From an uncultured Prochlorococcus sp. (lineage in GTDB: Bacteria > Cyanobacteriota > Cyanobacteriia > PCC-6307 > Cyanobiaceae): a stretch of 64,000 bases of DNA. Each line of letters opens with the position of its first letter. The first letter of the stretch is position 1. Shown here piece by piece: positions 21,558 to 31,770 of this stretch. The stretch is taken from contig CACIRS010000004.1 of assembly GCA_902589115.1 (NCBI GenBank), positions 1 through 64,000 on the forward strand, given 5' to 3'. The position numbers and the translations under genes are program-made. Below the pieces are notes generated by a model. That model ran no database searches. It saw nothing but the letters and a program-made list of their open reading frames with translations, and had not been told where the DNA came from.

Positions 21558-22923
21558 TAATCTTCTAAAGGCTCCAAACCAGAGTCTTGAAGAGACTGGC
21601 TATGCCTGGTATGTAGGCAATGCTCGTTTAATCAACCTATCTGGGCGTCTACTCGGTGCCCATGTAGCCCATGCAGGCCTAATGGTCTTCTGGGCTGGAG
21701 CGATGCTTCTTTATGAAGTCAGTCACTTCACCTATGACAAACCCATGTGGGAACAGGGTTTAATACTTATCCCCCATACAGCAATGTTTGGATATGGGAT
21801 AGGGCCTGGTGGAGAAATTACTGATATTTATCCATTTTTTGCAGCAGGTGTTGTCCATTTAGTTGCTTCAGCAATCCTTGGATTTGGAGGGATTTGGCAT
21901 GCTTTAGCCGGCCCAGAAAAATTGGAAGAAGCCTTCCCATTTTTCTCAACCGACTGGAGAGACAAAAACCAAATGACCACCATTCTTGGTCGTCATTTAT
22001 GCGTTCTTGGATTGGGATCACTCCTTTTTGCATTGAATTGGCAATTCCTAGGTGGTCTTTATGACACCTGGGCTCCTGGTGGAGGAGCAGTAAGGCTTGT
22101 AACTCCAACTATGGATCCAAGAATTATTTTTGGATACCTTTTTGCCACTCCATGGGGAGGCGGCGGCTCAATGGTTGGTGTCAACTCAGTTGAGGACATA
22201 GTTGGTGGTCATTATTGGTTAGCAATCCTCGAACTAGTAGGTGGTCACTTCCACATGCAAACCAAACCATACGGTTGGGCTCGCAGAGCTTTCATTTGGA
22301 ATGGAGAAGCACTTTTGGCTTATGCATTAGGTGGCCTATGTGTTGCAAGTTTTATTGCATCAACATTTGTTTGGTTTAACAACACTGCATATCCTTCTGA
22401 GTTCTACGGTCCAACAAACGCAGAAGCATCTCAGGCACAAAGTTTTACTTTCCTAGTGAGAGACCAACGTATTGGTGCAAACGTTGGCTCCACAATGGGT
22501 CCTACTGGACTAGGTAAGTACCTGATGAGATCTCCTACTGGAGAAATTATCTTTGGTGGAGAAACAATGCGTTTTTGGGACTTCAGAGGTCCTTGGCTAG
22601 AGCCTCTTCGTGGACCAAATGGATTGAGTCTCGACAAGATCCAAAATGATATTCAGCCTTGGCAAGTGCGTCGAGCAGCTGAATATATGACCCATGCTCC
22701 TAATGCCTCCATTAATTCAGTTGGTGGAATCATTACAGAGCCAAATGCTGTTAATTTTGTGAATCTCCGTCAGTGGTTAGCTTCGGCTCACTTCTTCCTT
22801 GGCTGGTTTACATTCATAGGACATCTTTGGCATGCAGGTAGGGCAAGAGCCGCTGCTGCTGGTTTCGAAAAAGGTATTGATCGTAAGAACGAACCAGTAC
22901 TCGCGATGCCAGATTTAGATTGA
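21541..22923 (+). CDS. psbC: Photosystem II CP43 chlorophyll protein
   Basis: CP43 is the inner antenna of photosystem II and supplies a ligand to the Mn4CaO5 cluster from the large lumenal loop between helices V and VI. Six membrane helices with paired histidines are visible, and the loop contains [20 protein letters not shown] with the conserved glutamate and arginine. The track ORF begins at 21463, but the known start is GTG at 21541 ([14 protein letters not shown]), overlapping psbD by 17 bases. A strong terminator follows. Confidence 0.97.
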
Positions 22924-25918: not shown

Positions 25919-26380
25919 CTAGAATGAGATATCTTTTAAGATTTCATGAGCAAACGAAGTTAATGGTAATATAAGTGAAATTGAACCAGCTAGAACTATG
26001 TTTGTTATATAAAAAACAAATCTTTTTTTACCGGCCAATCTATTACGCACGACAATCATTATTAGTAGAAATAATGTCGTAGAAGATGCAAGTAAGACTG
26101 AGCTTATTTTATCAATAAAGAAATTAAAATGAAAACCAAAATTACCTATTCCATCTATATCTAGATTGAAATCTTTAAAAACCTCATTGTTCCATTCTTT
26201 TGCAAGTATTAAATAGCTGATCAGAATTGAAAGTCCTATAGATAAGAACAAAATGTAGGTAACAGGCTTAGAAAGCCTGTTCATTGTTCTATTAAAACTC
26301 AGCAAAAGAATACCTATAAAACAAGCACCCATAAATGGCGATGCAGGTATCAGCCAGGCAAGCTCTAAAACATCAAGCAT
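25919..26380 (-). CDS. Short NdhF-like membrane protein (N-terminal part only)
   Basis: The first lines resemble the start of NdhF (chain 5 of NDH-1): LELAWLIPASPFMGACFIGI, then FNRTMNRLSK, FHFNFFIDKISSVLLA and LFLLIMIVVRNRLAGKKRFV fit the order of NdhF helices 1-3. NdhF normally has over 600 residues, and this ORF stops cleanly at 153 with no remaining sequence after it. It is either a conserved short paralogue or a decayed NdhF copy. The quinone-pumping core helices are missing, so it cannot act as a normal NdhF. Its ATG shares one base with the preceding gene's stop. Confidence 0.65.
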   Translation of the reverse strand: MLDVLELAWLIPASPFMGACFIGILLLSFNRTMNRLSKPVTYILFLSIGLSILISYLILAKEWNNEVFKDFNLDIDGIGNFGFHFNFFIDKISSVLLASSTTLFLLIMIVVRNRLAGKKRFVFYITNIVLAGSISLILPLTSFAHEILKDISF

Positions 26381-26490
26381 TATCTTGCCTTACTAGTTGC
26401 TTTGGAAAGCTCTACAAACAACTCTCTTAATCCAATCAAAGCAAGTACTCCAAAGATCAATCCTAATGTAACTGGCAAGATTTCCTGCAT
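26380..26490 (-). CDS. 36-residue membrane peptide upstream of the NdhF-like gene
   Basis: MQEILPVTLGLIFGVLALIG is followed by a short charged tail ending KATSKAR. One membrane helix is predicted by eye. The stop TAA overlaps the next ATG (TAATG), which indicates translational coupling with the NdhF-like protein. It might be a small NDH-1-associated or photosynthetic peptide; the family is not recognised. Confidence 0.5.
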   Translation of the reverse strand: MQEILPVTLGLIFGVLALIGLRELFVELSKATSKAR

Positions 26491-26748
26491 GACTGATAAA
26501 TCACTTACATGTTTGCTAGCAAATTTTTTTAATTTAGACAATTAACCTAACCCAAGCACAGCTATGTCGTAAGCAATATTGCCTACCAGTCAAGAGCGAA
26601 AGGTTTGAAATAACTGTTTTTGAATCTCTGTTATTAAGAAAATCCATTATTAATCGATAAATCGAATCATAATAATATTTATAAAAACAAAATATAATGC
26701 ATTAATAATGGGCTAATTTTAAAATATAAATAGTTGCCCCAACATAAC

Positions 26749-26907
26749 ATGCTTATCTACATATTAATAATAATAGCAATACTTATCTTCTCCTTTTTAG
26801 GTTTCAGATTGAATAAAGTCGAGCGATTTTATTCAACCAAAAAGTCTAAACGAAAAATGGTTAAACGAATTCGAAAAAGAGGTTTAAAAAGAAATAAAAA
26901 ATTTTGA
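26749..26907 (+). CDS. 52-residue single-helix protein with a very basic tail
   Basis: ATG at 26749 opens a frame encoding MLIYILIIIAILIFSFLGF followed by a lysine- and arginine-rich tail (KKSKRKMVKRIRKRGLKRNKKF). The pattern of one N-terminal membrane helix with a basic cytoplasmic end is clear, but no family is known to me. It stands alone in an AT-rich stretch with about 258 bases of featureless sequence upstream, where hydrophobic ORFs can arise by chance. Confidence 0.4.
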   Translation: MLIYILIIIAILIFSFLGFRLNKVERFYSTKKSKRKMVKRIRKRGLKRNKKF

Positions 26908-27037
26908 TTCCGAAAAATATCTTTAGCCTGTTTCCAATAGATCAGATATTTTACAAAGAATTAAAAATTGAGATGAACATACTTAATTCCTTATAACTAG
27001 CTATGCCTTATGATAAAGACTTGCAATTTTCTTTTCT

Positions 27038-27286
27038 ATGCAAAACAATCAAGGCTCATCTACCAACGAAGATATAAATCTTGTAGGAACAGAATCATCT
27101 AATATTGATTCATTACCTAAATGGATTAATAATGATGGACAAGAAGTTAAAGAAGTTTTTGGATTCAATGAAAATGCTGAACTAGTTAATGGAAGAGCTG
27201 CGATGATAGGCTTTTTAATGCTTATACTTACCGAAATTATCTTTCATGGGGATCCAGTGACTAAAAGTATATTTGGATTAGGCTGA
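27038..27286 (+). CDS. hli: High-light-inducible protein (Hli/SCP)
   Basis: The C-terminal half carries the chlorophyll-binding motif in ENAELVNGRAAMIGFLMLI, the ExxNGRxAMIGF signature of high-light-inducible proteins. A single membrane helix ends near the C-terminus at TEIIFHGDPV. The N-terminal 45 residues are polar and unlike other members. These proteins bind chlorophyll and carotenoid, protect photosystem II and associate with Ycf39. Prochlorococcus often carries several copies in genomic islands. Confidence 0.93.
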   Translation: MQNNQGSSTNEDINLVGTESSNIDSLPKWINNDGQEVKEVFGFNENAELVNGRAAMIGFLMLILTEIIFHGDPVTKSIFGLG

Positions 27287-27357
27287 ACAATCAAGACAAG
27301 TTAAATTGAACAATATATTATATTTAATTTATCTAGTAAATCACTGCTATTTATTCA

Positions 27358-27762
27358 ATGAATAAAAAAAGGTCAAGACCAATTACAAATTTAGAAGAAT
27401 TTGAAAGAGCAATAAAACTTGCAAGCCTTGAGGATAGTGAATTGCAAATCATTGAATATGTACGTTTTATAGGAACATTTAGTCAGCCAAGCCTAATAAA
27501 AGAACTTAGAATTAAATCAAAACCTCCTATCCTATCCAGAATCTGCACTGCAAGCAGGAAGATAGGTATCCATATGCCAACTCATTTTAAAAAAGTTCGA
27601 GAATGGTCTGAAATGGTTAGTGCAGAAGGAGTGAGATGGGATGGAGATTTAATTTGTAGTGCTGCTTGGAATATTGATGGGAAAAGACTTTGCCCAGAAG
27701 AGGGAACATCGCAGTTCCATATATTTTCTGTACACCAAGAGCTATTTCAAGGTTTTGACTAA
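27358..27762 (+). CDS. Conserved soluble protein, function unknown
   Basis: The 134-residue product has no membrane helix and no recognised motif. It contains IIEYVRFIGTFSQPSLIKELRIKSKPPILSRICTASRKIG, which could be a helix-turn-helix-like core, and an aromatic C-terminus (WSEMVSAEGVRWDGDLICSAAWNID). It follows the hli gene by 71 bases on the same strand. The composition is that of a real protein. It may belong to the picocyanobacterial flexible gene set. Confidence 0.55.
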   Translation: MNKKRSRPITNLEEFERAIKLASLEDSELQIIEYVRFIGTFSQPSLIKELRIKSKPPILSRICTASRKIGIHMPTHFKKVREWSEMVSAEGVRWDGDLICSAAWNIDGKRLCPEEGTSQFHIFSVHQELFQGFD

Positions 27763-27776
27763 GAAATAATCTTTAG

Positions 27777-28055
27777 TTATCTACCACCTAAACCTAAAAA
27801 AGATAGAACGAAGTTATCAAAGCCGTGATAACCAGCCATCTGGGCAATTAACAGTATAAATAGCCAAGCCAAATGTAATGCGCCCAATAGAACAAAATGT
27901 CTCCACAGGCCATATGTAAATGGAGCCACACCTACAGGTTTAAAAGATTTTGTCATACCAACATAAGCTTTATTCTTGCTCTTATTATTATTTGTATTTG
28001 GCATATCAGCTTTTTCAATATTTTTTGTTGGCAATGATTGTGGTGAGCTAGTCAT
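27777..28055 (-). CDS. Small membrane protein with histidines beside the helix
   Basis: This 92-residue protein has a polar N-terminal half rich in Asn and Lys, then a hydrophobic segment FTYGLWRHFVLLGALHLAWL and FILLIAQMAGYHGFDNFVLS. Histidines at both ends of the hydrophobic stretch are of the type that ligate chlorophyll or haem in photosynthetic proteins, but I cannot assign a family. It is convergent with the preceding gene, 14 bases apart, with no terminator visible between them. Confidence 0.55.
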   Translation of the reverse strand: MTSSPQSLPTKNIEKADMPNTNNNKSKNKAYVGMTKSFKPVGVAPFTYGLWRHFVLLGALHLAWLFILLIAQMAGYHGFDNFVLSFLGLGGR

Positions 28056-28427
28056 AGTTTATTTGGTGAAGAAAGCTAATTAATTATCTTTATTGATTAG
28101 CACATTTACGTCTTACCAAAAACAAAAAAAAGCAAGAATATAACCAATTCGAAGATTAATTACATATAAATGGTAAATTTTATACCAATAAGGTCTTGAT
28201 ACTGATTCCCGCTTATTTTGGAATTTACATGCAATCGACCTCCTAGATGATCCACAAAAGAATCTCCAACTCGGCCTAAAACTTTTGATGACTTAGCTCA
28301 AAAGATAAATAAAAGGAGATTTAACTTATCTTCGTTAAATTTGGCACGAAGATTCTGATCTTAGGTTACTTAAAGTTTGCACTATGCGATATCTATTGAT
28401 GCAAAATAGCTATAAAGCTAATCTCCT
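28056..28427. other. Gene-free AT-rich gap
   Basis: No ORF with a usable start is seen. One in-frame stretch reads GLDTDSRLFWNLHAIDLLDD, ending soon after in LKLLMT and a stop; it looks protein-like but has no start codon, and could be a remnant. The right end must carry the promoter of the next plus-strand gene. Confidence 0.4.
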
Positions 28428-28820
28428 ATGGAAACCTTTAAAACATTTTTATTTGGAATCAGCGGAATAAGCATGATCTTTTGGGTTGCGGTCATTGGCA
28501 TGTGGCATGTTGACATGTTTCCAAAAATCTTTAATTCCGATCAATTTCAAACTATTGGATTGGGGAATTCTCCTGTTCCCAAAAGATCTGATGTCAAATC
28601 GTTGGTAGCAGAAGGCGCTCTAAGGCCAGATATTGAAAATACAGGGCTTACTGACAGAGCAAAATATTCCAGAAAGTCATTAGTTGTAGCAGACTTTAGC
28701 CCTTTAGAAGATGGATATGGAGTAAACCGGCTTTATACTTCAATGATTTTAAGCCTAGGAGTAATGTCATTTATAATAATCACTTATGGTTTACATAGTG
28801 GATTTAGTTTAATTACCTAG
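28428..28820 (+). CDS. Two-helix membrane protein, function unknown
   Basis: The 130-residue protein begins with a hydrophobic helix (FLFGISGISMIFWVAVIGMW), has a polar middle of about 75 residues, and ends with a second helix (SMILSLGVMSFIIITYGLHS). The middle would then lie on one side of the membrane. I do not recognise the family. Spacing of 371 bases upstream suggests a separate promoter. Composition and length resemble other photosynthesis-related small proteins of Prochlorococcus. Confidence 0.55.
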   Translation: METFKTFLFGISGISMIFWVAVIGMWHVDMFPKIFNSDQFQTIGLGNSPVPKRSDVKSLVAEGALRPDIENTGLTDRAKYSRKSLVVADFSPLEDGYGVNRLYTSMILSLGVMSFIIITYGLHSGFSLIT

Positions 28821-29040
28821 TTAAAAAAAATTCAGATCTTCTCAAATTCTTTATGGTTAATTAAGTAATATAATATAAGAAAATTTTTTCTATAATAATC
28901 ATCTGCAAGTAGATCAAAATAGCAAGAGAAGATATAAATTTAATCCAGGCATGCTTCAATTATTACCAAGAGAAGTATTAATTTATATATATTCAAATGG
29001 TCTTTTTAAGTAAATTAAAGTTGGATACTTAGGCAATCAA

Positions 29041-29331
29041 ATGGAAACTTTAGACCCAAACGAATCAATTCTTAGTCCTGAAAAATCAATTGATCAGTCA
29101 AGTACATCTAAACCTGTAGTTCAAGTTTCTACTCCAGAGTTTAAAAATCCAGCTTCCCCATATACTGCATTAAAAAGCTCTTTACAAGAAGGAGTAGGGA
29201 GTTCCCCAGAAAAAATTAAGTTCTTTGGTCCTAGGTTTATGACCATTTGGGTAATGCCTATCGCATTAACAGGAATAGTAATGGAGTTTTTATTCGTAAG
29301 CCCTCTTCGAAATAGCAATCCTTTTAGTTAA
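29041..29331 (+). CDS. Small protein with a C-terminal membrane helix
   Basis: This 96-residue protein has a Ser/Pro/Glu-rich N-terminal 65 residues and a C-terminal hydrophobic segment (FMTIWVMPIALTGIVMEFLF). The arrangement is that of a tail-anchored protein. No family is recognised. It lies 220 bases after the previous gene and before another small membrane protein on the same strand. Confidence 0.5.
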   Translation: METLDPNESILSPEKSIDQSSTSKPVVQVSTPEFKNPASPYTALKSSLQEGVGSSPEKIKFFGPRFMTIWVMPIALTGIVMEFLFVSPLRNSNPFS

Positions 29332-29496
29332 AAGATTTAAGAATAAACCCTAGTCAATTAAATAAAGTTAGTAATTAATAATTTATTTTTAAAGATAAAA
29401 TTGAGTCGATCTCCTTTTTTTGTTATAGGATTGAAAATATCTGCCCTATTTAGGGTATTCCTACATTAGGATGAAGATATTAATATTAAAGAAATT

Positions 29497-29718
29497 ATGG
29501 CTATGGGTAAAAAAGAAATTGCTTCAATATTATATGTTGCTGCGTGGGTCTTGATTTGGGGAACAGTAGGATCATTAATTGATTTCCCATTACTTCAGTC
29601 TGGTGTATATCTAAAAGGTTCAATTGGACAAATTACCACTTTCTTAGTAACAGCAGTCTTTACTTCTATACTAGGTACTTGGCTATTTTCGTATATAATT
29701 TCCAAAAGATTTCAATAG
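29497..29718 (+). CDS. Two-helix membrane protein, function unknown
   Basis: The 73-residue product has two hydrophobic helices (IASILYVAAWVLIWGTVGSL and TTFLVTAVFTSILGTWLFSY), joined by a short polar loop. Both termini are basic. The family is not recognised. Similar two-helix proteins are frequent in picocyanobacterial genomes. It has its own upstream AT-rich region of 165 bases. Confidence 0.55.
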   Translation: MAMGKKEIASILYVAAWVLIWGTVGSLIDFPLLQSGVYLKGSIGQITTFLVTAVFTSILGTWLFSYIISKRFQ

Positions 29719-29749
29719 CAAATTTATTTAGATTAATAAAAAATGAATA

Positions 29750-29995
29750 TCAATATCTAAACCTCTTAATCACCTCTGAAGGGAGCTTTTGATTACCTTC
29801 TTTATACAAAATCCACTGTCTAGTCTCTAGATCATGATCACAACCGTATTGCTGAGGCTCTTGATACTGTTGAGACAACATATAATGACATGATTGATCT
29901 GCCTCAAAGGCAGATCCAAATTTATTCAATTGTAAAAATGCTAGAAAAAGTATTCCAGCAGAGGCTATCAAAATCCAAAATAATCGCATTTTCAA
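29750..29995 (-). CDS. Small anchored protein with two cysteines
   Basis: The 81-residue protein begins with a signal anchor (MRLFWILIASAGILFLAFLQ), then a polar domain with two cysteines in DQSCHYMLSQQYQEPQQYGC. The domain would sit outside the cytoplasm, where the cysteines could form a disulfide. The C-terminus is basic. It is convergent with the preceding gene. No family is recognised. Confidence 0.5.
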   Translation of the reverse strand: MKMRLFWILIASAGILFLAFLQLNKFGSAFEADQSCHYMLSQQYQEPQQYGCDHDLETRQWILYKEGNQKLPSEVIKRFRY

Positions 29996-30184
29996 AATTT
30001 TGTTGAGATCAATTTAAAAAGAAAGAGCTCTATAAGAGAGAATATCGTTTAAAATATTTAATCATCTTGCCCATTTAACTAGCAAGCTCTTGGATATTAG
30101 ATGAATAAGCTTGATGAATTTATGATTGTCAATTGGCATTAGATAAATTAAAGTTAATTATCGTGCACCAATTTATTCTTTTAT

Positions 30185-30304
30185 ATGGGTCTAAAGAAGG
30201 AAGCTGAAACCAATCCTAGAAATGCAAAGCTAGTTTTATTACTTTTTGGACTTGGTCCAATTATAATAATGGGTATATTCCTTTATTCCAAAGGATTCTT
30301 CTAA
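30185..30304 (+). CDS. 39-residue single-helix membrane protein
   Basis: ATG at 30185 encodes MGLKKEAETNPRNAKLVLLL followed by FGLGPIIIMGIFLYSKGFF and a stop. The charged N-terminus and a clean single helix are typical of small photosynthetic membrane subunits. The family is not recognised; the start could not be compared with homologues. It is too short for the ORF track. Confidence 0.5.
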   Translation: MGLKKEAETNPRNAKLVLLLFGLGPIIIMGIFLYSKGFF

Positions 30305-30373
30305 TTTAAATAAATAGCTATTTAATGAAATTACAATAGCAAGATTAATTATCTAAAAAGTAAAAATATAGTC

Positions 30374-30559
30374 TTATTTGTCAGCTTGCTTTACATCACA
30401 GCTGATTTCACATTGCGTTAGTTCTGGATTTGACAATTTTTCTAGTATTCTTGCCATATCTACTGATGACAATTCTCCATTACTGCCCCACTTAAGAGTC
30501 GTCTTCCTTTGGAGTGCTGCTTTTTTAGCTTCTTTAGATTGAGGTTGATTAAGTGCCAA
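30374..30559 (-). CDS. Conserved 61-residue soluble protein, function unknown
   Basis: The protein is hydrophilic: a Lys/Gln-rich N-terminus (QPQSKEAKKAALQRKTTLKW) and a second half SSVDMARILEKLSNPELTQCEISCDVKQ with two cysteines. It has no membrane helix. I do not recognise it. It is convergent with the preceding 39-residue gene and faces 270 bases of gene-free sequence upstream. Confidence 0.5.
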   Translation of the reverse strand: MALNQPQSKEAKKAALQRKTTLKWGSNGELSSVDMARILEKLSNPELTQCEISCDVKQADK

Positions 30560-30829
30560 ACCTTTTTCCCTCCTTTTACAGATCTATATTGAACCTTGCT
30601 CTAGCGCAAAAACGGCCAATTATTATCCAAACTTCACTTATTTTTTTTTTGCAAGTTATGAAAAAATTTCTTCAAACATACTTGAACCTATCTGCAAAAG
30701 CTTAAGCCAAAATGAACTGTTCCTTAATTCAAAAAAGTTTCAAAATGAAATTACAAGCTTCTACTTTGATCTCTTTGGCAATTCAGCCATAAATTAGAAG
30801 TTGTACAAACCTCTCATAAGTTATTAAGC

Positions 30830-31003
30830 ATGAGAATATCTACTCTTTGGGCTATTGCTTTTGGCGAGATGGATCTCTCTCCACTTACAGTGGCTGGGCT
30901 TATAGGGATCGCAGTATTTCTTTTCTTGGCTGTTGGAATCAGCACCTTATCACTATTTAGAGGTGTATCAGAGAGTGGTGAGTCCATACAAAAGAAAGAT
31001 TAA
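30830..31003 (+). CDS. 57-residue single-helix membrane protein
   Basis: ATG at 30830 encodes MRISTLWAIAFGEMDLSPLT, then a hydrophobic helix (VAGLIGIAVFLFLAVGISTL) and a polar tail ending SGESIQKKD. An internal ATG at residue 14 would give a 44-residue protein beginning MDLSPLTVAG and may be the real start. No family is recognised. It is the last gene before the partial tRNA copy. Confidence 0.5.
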   Translation: MRISTLWAIAFGEMDLSPLTVAGLIGIAVFLFLAVGISTLSLFRGVSESGESIQKKD

Positions 31004-31150: not shown

Positions 31151-31197
31151 TGGAGCCAAGCGGACTCGAACCGCTAACCCCCTCCATGCCATGCAGG
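31151..31197 (-). repeat. Partial copy of the tRNA-Ala(GGC) 3' part (direct repeat, copy 1)
   Basis: These 47 bases match the 3' end through the anticodon arm of the intact tRNA-Ala at 31698-31744 with two mismatches, in the same orientation. One mismatch breaks a pair of the anticodon stem. The T arm and acceptor 3' strand are intact, but the tRNA 5' half is absent or too degraded to fold: an AGCTCA-like stretch lies further off at the wrong distance. The copies bracket about 500 bases, as at a tRNA attachment site. Confidence 0.85.
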
Positions 31198-31293
31198 CAT
31201 GTATTCGCCAAAATCCATTGCAGCAGTTGAGCTTTACCTCTTGGTGCCTGGCATCTAGCGCAGATTAGAGGTGGCTAGATAGATCCACCCAAT

Positions 31294-31324
31294 AAAAAAG
31301 GCCCTTGCGAAACGCTCCGGACCT
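31294..31324 (-). terminator. Minus-strand Rho-independent terminator in the tRNA-flanked spacer
   Basis: On the minus strand, AGGTCC pairs with GGGCCT (one G-U pair) around a loop containing GCGTTTCGC, followed by six T. It would end a transcript running from the tRNA-Ala side. Confidence 0.65.
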
Positions 31325-31506
31325 GGGTGATGGGGACCTTATTTCTAAGACTGATTCAGCTTAAAATCAACCCCCATTTGTAGCGTTTTTTCTTATCAGA
31401 CATATTAAGAAACACCATAAATAGCGTGTTTCTACCGATGACAAATCGCTTGACAGTGTGTAAGTTCCGCTCAACGGCCGGGTGATGGGGATCAAACGGT
31501 CTTAAT

Positions 31507-31543
31507 AAAAGAGCCTCTTTTCTGCATGGGGGGCTTTTTTTTT
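31507..31543 (+). terminator. Hairpin with long T run, usable on both strands
   Basis: AAAAGAGCC pairs with GGCTTTTTT (one G-U pair) around a 16-base loop and runs into nine T. The A-rich left arm also allows termination on the minus strand. No plus-strand gene precedes it, so the transcript it ends is unknown. Confidence 0.6.
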
Positions 31544-31570
31544 ATGTGAGGGATGCAGGGGATCCAGGTG

Positions 31571-31590
31571 TTATTCAATTTTCAAGGTTC
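31571..31590 (-). promoter_or_regulatory. rRNA boxA-like antiterminator sequence
   Basis: The minus strand reads GAACCTTGAAAATTGAATAA. The core GAACCTTGAAAA matches the boxA of cyanobacterial 16S-23S spacers, where it lies downstream of a tRNA gene. Here it follows tRNA-Ala(GGC) by about 110 bases without any rRNA. A function is inference. Confidence 0.4.
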
Positions 31591-31697
31591 TATCGCCCAC
31601 CTCCTAGGGGCAAGGATCAATAGGCCTGTTATTAGCAGTACATGGGTCGATCCAATTAGCTTTCACTCGAAGCCTTTGCTATTACTCGAAAAAGAAG

Positions 31698-31770
31698 TGG
31701 AGCCAAGCGGACTCGAACCGCTGACCCCCTGCATGCCATGCAGGTGCTCTACCAACTGAGCTATGGCCCC
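31698..31770 (-). tRNA. tRNA-Ala (anticodon GGC)
   Basis: The minus strand folds into a full cloverleaf of 73 bases: acceptor GGGGCCA with TGGCTCC, D arm AGCTCAGTTGGTAGAGC, anticodon stem CCTGC/GCAGG with loop ATGGCAT (anticodon GGC), and T arm AGCGG-TTCGAGT-CCGCT. A G3-U70 wobble pair, the alanine identity element, is present. The 3' CCA is not encoded. A partial copy of its 3' part lies about 500 bases downstream. Confidence 0.95.

Follow-up and report, generated by a model that had tools for sequence, protein, structure and literature searches.

A probable tRNA-Ala(GGC)-targeted element relic in Prochlorococcus that retains a putative pair of divergent, complementary small RNAs

The tRNA-Ala(GGC) gene, its partial copy and the DNA between them

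The stretch we analyzed (64,000 nucleotides of contig CACIRS010000004.1, hereafter the window) comes from a deep-branching Prochlorococcus and holds one tRNA gene, an intact tRNA-Ala(GGC), whose 3' half is present a second time a short distance away (Table 1). A repeat search of the window aligned positions 31151-31197 with 31698-31744 as a 47-bp direct repeat of 96% identity, 547 bp from start to start, the partial copy lying beyond the 3' end of the tRNA gene in the same orientation. This confirmed two statements of a first-pass annotation of this DNA, which had given a 47-base repeat with two mismatches and a spacing of about 500 bases. Neither ARAGORN nor Rfam found another tRNA in the window, and as ARAGORN calls a single tRNA we rejected the partial copy as a second functional one. 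Even with as many as 17 mismatches allowed, the 47-mer occurred in just two places in the whole window, and with up to 3 mismatches it had exactly two sites in the genome assembly, which excludes a chance origin of the repeat. The annotation had also suggested an attachment array for larger islands, but neither the window nor the assembly has a third copy of the tRNA end.

Table 1. Features of the repeat-bounded interval and its borders (window coordinates)
Feature	Position	Strand	Basis or remark
Partial tRNA-Ala 3' half, putative distal attachment-site scar	31151-31197	-	45/47 identity, repeat search
Segment 1 of bracketed DNA	31198-31290		GC 0.50 vs 0.32 in left flank; no relative found
Putative sRNA A	31291-31424	-	-10 region, GGGGG ... 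UCCCCAUCACCC, GC-rich terminator, 3' U-run; alignment, consensus fold, model R1
First GGGTGATGGGGA	31325-31336	+	Read as UCCCCAUCACCC in A
Candidate -35 of B, TTATCA	31393-31398	+	
Shared palindromic -10 region	31416-31424		CATAAATAG here, TATAAATAG in most relatives; conservation
Putative sRNA B	31416-31545	+	-10 region, hairpin 31476-31501, terminator; alignment, folds, pair counts, terminator scan, model R2
Candidate -35 of A, TTGTCA	31444-31439	-	
B hairpin presenting GGGUGAUGGGGAUC	31476-31501	+	Folds
Second GGGTGATGGGGA	31480-31491	+	Read as such in B hairpin
B terminator with U-run	31507-31540	+	Terminator scan
BoxA-like block GAACCTTGAAAATTGAATAAC	31570-31607	-	Recurs beside module copies in other genomes
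40-nt gene stub	31606-31645	-	93% identity to 5' coding end of G042 staphylococcal-nuclease-like gene
Intact tRNA-Ala(GGC)	31697-31770	-	ARAGORN; Rfam RF00005, 67.1 bits; 3' end faces bracketed DNA

The annotation's report of no integrase or gene between the two copies agreed with our searches: the open reading frames listed for the interval encode only 42-68 aa, none of them convincing, and no recombinase was found in the window either in the ORF list or by tblastn with the recombinase proteins of comparable elements. No attP arm or circular form was seen in the window. A conserved 255-bp module (31291-31545) makes up about half of the bracketed DNA, and the segments outside it have a GC content of 0.46-0.50 versus 0.32 in the left flank. 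For the segment beside the partial copy, a sequence search elsewhere gave only short, weak matches and no source. On the tRNA side, the boxA-like block resembles boxA of the genome's own 16S-23S spacer; an rRNA-spacer origin of that segment was rejected, the match to the spacer being just the 21 nt of boxA. The gene to which the neighboring 40-nt stub corresponds encodes a product matching the SNase family. The whole bracketed segment was found only in this genome among the genomes searched.

Outside the interval, a run of small ORFs (26380-31003) adjoins the partial copy; of ten that we tested, one had a Pfam match, to a chlorophyll a/b-binding protein of the high-light-inducible type (27038-27286). 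The window also encodes the antisense RNA IsrR, a regulator of isiA (21955-22138; Rfam RF01419, 135.7 bits).

tRNA-Ala(GGC) loci in related genomes

Among 400 genomes of the family, 241 matched the 47-mer of the tRNA half when up to 3 mismatches were allowed, and 30 of these have at least two copies when per-genome rows are counted. In all seven other multi-copy genomes that we inspected (G020, G085, G374, G241, G139, G162 and G016), the extra copy is found 3' of a complete tRNA, in direct orientation, and its identity stops near the anticodon arm. The repeat-bounded intervals in these genomes span 1.1-4.7 kb, that of the window being the shortest seen. Their contents include a LodA-like oxidase with an FAD oxidoreductase (G020), a carbamoyltransferase (G085), a GDSL protein (G374) and, in the 1.1-kb interval of G016, a single 213-aa ORF of unknown kind. 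Those of G241 and G139 contain tyrosine-recombinase ORFs in pieces, 43-51% identical to each other, which match a PHROG integrase profile (E-value 2e-5 for the best piece, the rest weak). Judged from sequence, such geometry and contents are the pattern of tRNA-targeted integration, and the comparison shows tRNA-Ala(GGC) as a recurrent putative insertion point across the family.

The relatives examined that have tRNA-Ala(GGC) beside lexA possess one tRNA and no partial copy within up to 1.35 kb on its 3' side, so the repeat arrangement is not ancestral in them. We found no clean empty site among close relatives, and a strict one is not demonstrable because the 3'-side flanks differ and are mostly not syntenic. 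The annotation had held that its reading would be refuted if every strain had the identical 500-base segment and repeat with constant flanks; the other genomes that we examined lack the arrangement.

Some further features of these loci deserve record. G020 has a small-protein gene in two places, within the tRNA-Ala element and past the partial copy (L096, 7708-7962 and 13207-13542), as if two elements were stacked, and the protein has distant matches in the elements of G241 and G085. This gene, common to three elements, was first taken for a phage terminase subunit, an assignment we rejected as it had no library support. G374 encodes a homolog of the G241/G139 recombinase 5' of its intact tRNA-Ala(GGC), outside the repeat-bounded interval (L125, 3396-3902). 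At five loci (L063, L065, L067, L069 and L078), ~270 to 1000 bp of extra DNA lies between lexA and the 5' side of tRNA-Ala(GGC), compared with ~65-70 bp in other relatives.

Seven tRNA genes have been described for the tycheposons, tRNA-bordered integrative elements of Prochlorococcus. The window locus resembles these in having a tRNA gene at one border of the interval and a directly oriented partial 3' copy at the other, and comparable elements at the same tRNA carry tyrosine-recombinase pieces or cargo. It differs in having no tyrosine recombinase and in an interval of 547 bp with only a nuclease-gene stub, whereas tycheposons as defined in PMC10872708 are 4-200 kb with cargo. Since it fails on both size and recombinase, we do not class the locus as a tycheposon. 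When the annotation invoked integrative elements, tycheposons included, it was right about the tRNA 3'-end geometry, and the same tRNA does recur as an insertion point in the family, but strict tycheposon membership does not hold.

A divergent module of two putative small RNAs

Aligned copies of the module consist of two halves with outward-facing terminators and a conserved palindromic TATAAATA between them, and the reading that suits the module best is a pair of divergent sRNA genes, A on the minus and B on the plus strand. Their promoters are proposed from conservation of the -10 region, the listing of a sigma-70 scan containing no divergent promoters for A and B. The terminators, short repeats and boxA-like site of the annotation are all real but were under-read: the terminators and the repeated GGGTGATGGGGA are parts of a conserved two-RNA module, a putative sRNA pair that the annotation overlooked.

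Because each half of the module has one GGGTGATGGGGA in the DNA, the A and B RNAs are complementary over 12 nt (motifs GGGUGAUGGGGA / UCCCCAUCACCC). In most of the 18 pairs tested, this motif, whole or nearly so, is the longest perfect A:B complement, against an average of 6.3-7 nt in shuffled controls. In the LLI-type genomes G085 and G172 the complement extends to 17 nt, both RNAs having changed together, while one diverged copy (L045_16634) has lost the complementary motif and another (L150_4928) has a longer match that comes from overlapping 5' ends. In seven genomes the 12-mer has 4 to 10 occurrences each, most of them within A or B, versus 0 to 1 for a reversed control. The two hairpins of B have 95-96% paired cells, with two-sided changes at 5 of 18 pairs (9 of 18 with a model-fitted alignment), above all 500 shuffles. 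The consensus fold of A comprises a terminator stem and a GGGG/CCCC helix in which the motif of A is held, with no two-sided covariation in the alignment from which it was derived; the whole module, folded as a single sequence, was only mildly better than shuffles.

Relatives of 31286-31543 with 75-94% identity over up to 258 bp were found in ~25 genomes, often twice per genome, and model R1, which represents A, had matches in 162 of the 400 family genomes, mostly those of Prochlorococcus size. Several genomes carry many copies, with up to nine in G051 and six in G030, and some copies form nearly identical pairs that lie a few kb apart, with identical stretches of up to 378 bp. G070 carries an A/B pair, some copies elsewhere have A without B, and contig 18 of the window's own genome holds another copy, consisting of A alone. 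Among the module neighborhoods we inspected, only one other copy is close to a tRNA; as the module is usually away from tRNAs, it may lie between the repeats by coincidence. With Rfam, neither the module nor its distant relatives gave any match except the tRNA; HPnc0260 and other sub-threshold matches were rejected as below the gathering score, and a Rhodospirillales motif match (L123) was rejected as a 26-bp match only. Many Prochlorococcus genomes contain the putative A/B pair, which the library of RNA families that we searched (Rfam) does not include.

One region of G051 (L149-L152, 86-143 kb) contains a cluster of several A/B copies, some of them A-only, which suggests an island rich in A/B RNAs.

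In Prochlorococcus MED4, Yfr10/Yfr12/Yfr18 adjoin Yfr2/Yfr4/Yfr5 and have complementary motifs (PMC2518516), and crosstalk of Yfr2 with Yfr1/Yfr10 is experimentally supported (PMC6778093). A and B are likewise adjacent, complementary in their motifs, multicopy and partly in genomic islands. In contrast to the MED4 pairs, they form a fixed module in which both genes run outwards from a single -10 region, have no Rfam match, and carry UCCCCAUCACCC where the Yfr motif is ACUCCUCACAC. The CUCCUCACAC-type motif of Yfr1/Yfr2/Yfr10 and its partner are not in the A and B alignments, and motifs and Rfam set A/B apart from these three; A or B may still correspond to another named Yfr RNA, such as Yfr13 or Yfr19. 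B of the window's subclade (L042, L047 and L048 copies; window 31456-31464) has GUGUGUAGG or GUGUGUAAG, which closely resemble GUGUGUAGGAG, the 5' motif given for Yfr2-type RNAs (PMC2518516), but are not conserved in other lineages. PMC8687705 describes a trans-acting sRNA and its cis-encoded antagonist, with processing by RNase III; the resemblance would lie in an sRNA being partnered by an antagonist RNA that is encoded locally.

Origin of the locus and possible role of the pair

We read the locus as the relic of a tycheposon-type element at tRNA-Ala(GGC) that retains a divergent pair of complementary sRNAs, and give this a probability of roughly 0.68. We infer the following history of insertion and deletion from the repeat and from the recurrence of its geometry in other genomes. 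A tycheposon-type integrative element would have entered at the anticodon-arm/3' half of the tRNA gene, which was regenerated intact while the displaced 3' half became the partial copy. Recombinase and most cargo would later have been lost, leaving 500 bp of island DNA with the nuclease-gene stub, the boxA-like block and the A/B module.

A non-mobile origin is a considerably less probable account: local duplication or illegitimate recombination would have copied the tRNA 3' half, and rearrangement would have placed island DNA between the copies. It would explain an interval without a recombinase, and the module is itself repeated, with stretches of identical DNA between pairs elsewhere that point to duplication by recombination being common in these islands. 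Against it, the anticodon-arm breakpoint, the location 3' of the tRNA and the direct orientation are as in the other cases inspected, and two of those have recombinase pieces. Were the 547 bp instead a live minimal satellite, excising and moving by mobilization in trans with the sRNA pair as cargo, the 45 of 47 identical positions in the repeats would be natural, and the one-ORF interval of G016 would offer a small counterpart at the same tRNA. We think this improbable, given that the segment, among the genomes searched, occurs only here, has a decayed gene stub inside and displays nothing that indicates mobility; moreover, no phage record matched the module at the sensitivity used, and five exact motif matches in viral contigs were rejected as none gave a module match. 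A relic is the likelier state of the interval, to which the nuclease-gene stub and the missing recombinase both point, and of the three possibilities listed in the first-pass annotation it best fits an interval with no ORF, a decayed tRNA copy and a gene stub.

The module, too, can be read otherwise. Instead of an RNA pair it may be a terminator working in both directions or, with its two direct GGGTGATGGGGA sites, an array for DNA binding. The 12-mer is a perfect direct repeat in the DNA, and the sRNAs are predictions from sequence; we consider this reading rather unlikely, as the terminators point outwards from a conserved center, the B hairpins have compensatory changes, another lineage reached its 17-nt complementarity by matching changes in both halves, and A is also present without B. 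Several type I toxin-antitoxin pairs consist of divergent RNAs that are complementary to each other, and a frame of 14-15 codons is kept in 23 of 25 B copies, which would suit A or B as a tiny mRNA. This seems very improbable to us. Third positions vary least in the B frame (0.086 versus 0.111 and 0.165), the opposite of protein-level selection, and on this pattern a coding function of B was rejected; the small peptide ORF under protein-level constraint that marks a type I pair was thus not found. The B peptide is also not strongly hydrophobic, and the LLI-type B sequences that we read by eye have no such frame ending at the motif.

With A and B taken as RNAs, both would start at the one palindromic -10 region and run outwards to separate terminators. 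The conservation of the module, its complementarity and the covariation in the B hairpins are what we observed, and transcription, pairing of the RNAs in the cell and any target are what they would lead one to expect. As the motifs are complementary, B probably pairs with A, either as its decoy or antagonist or in joint regulation of targets. A wider proposal, which we offer tentatively and regard as doubtful, is that islands and tRNA-targeted elements of Prochlorococcus carry the fixed divergent module as cargo in multiple copies, a self-contained regulator/antagonist pair that spreads horizontally and is here the sole recognizable functional content of a remnant. Regulation in Prochlorococcus relies on few proteins and many small RNAs. 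If the proposal is true, a widespread, multicopy, island-associated sRNA pair would make a well-defined RNA circuit open to testing in the most abundant phototroph, and would connect mobile elements with regulation by RNA.
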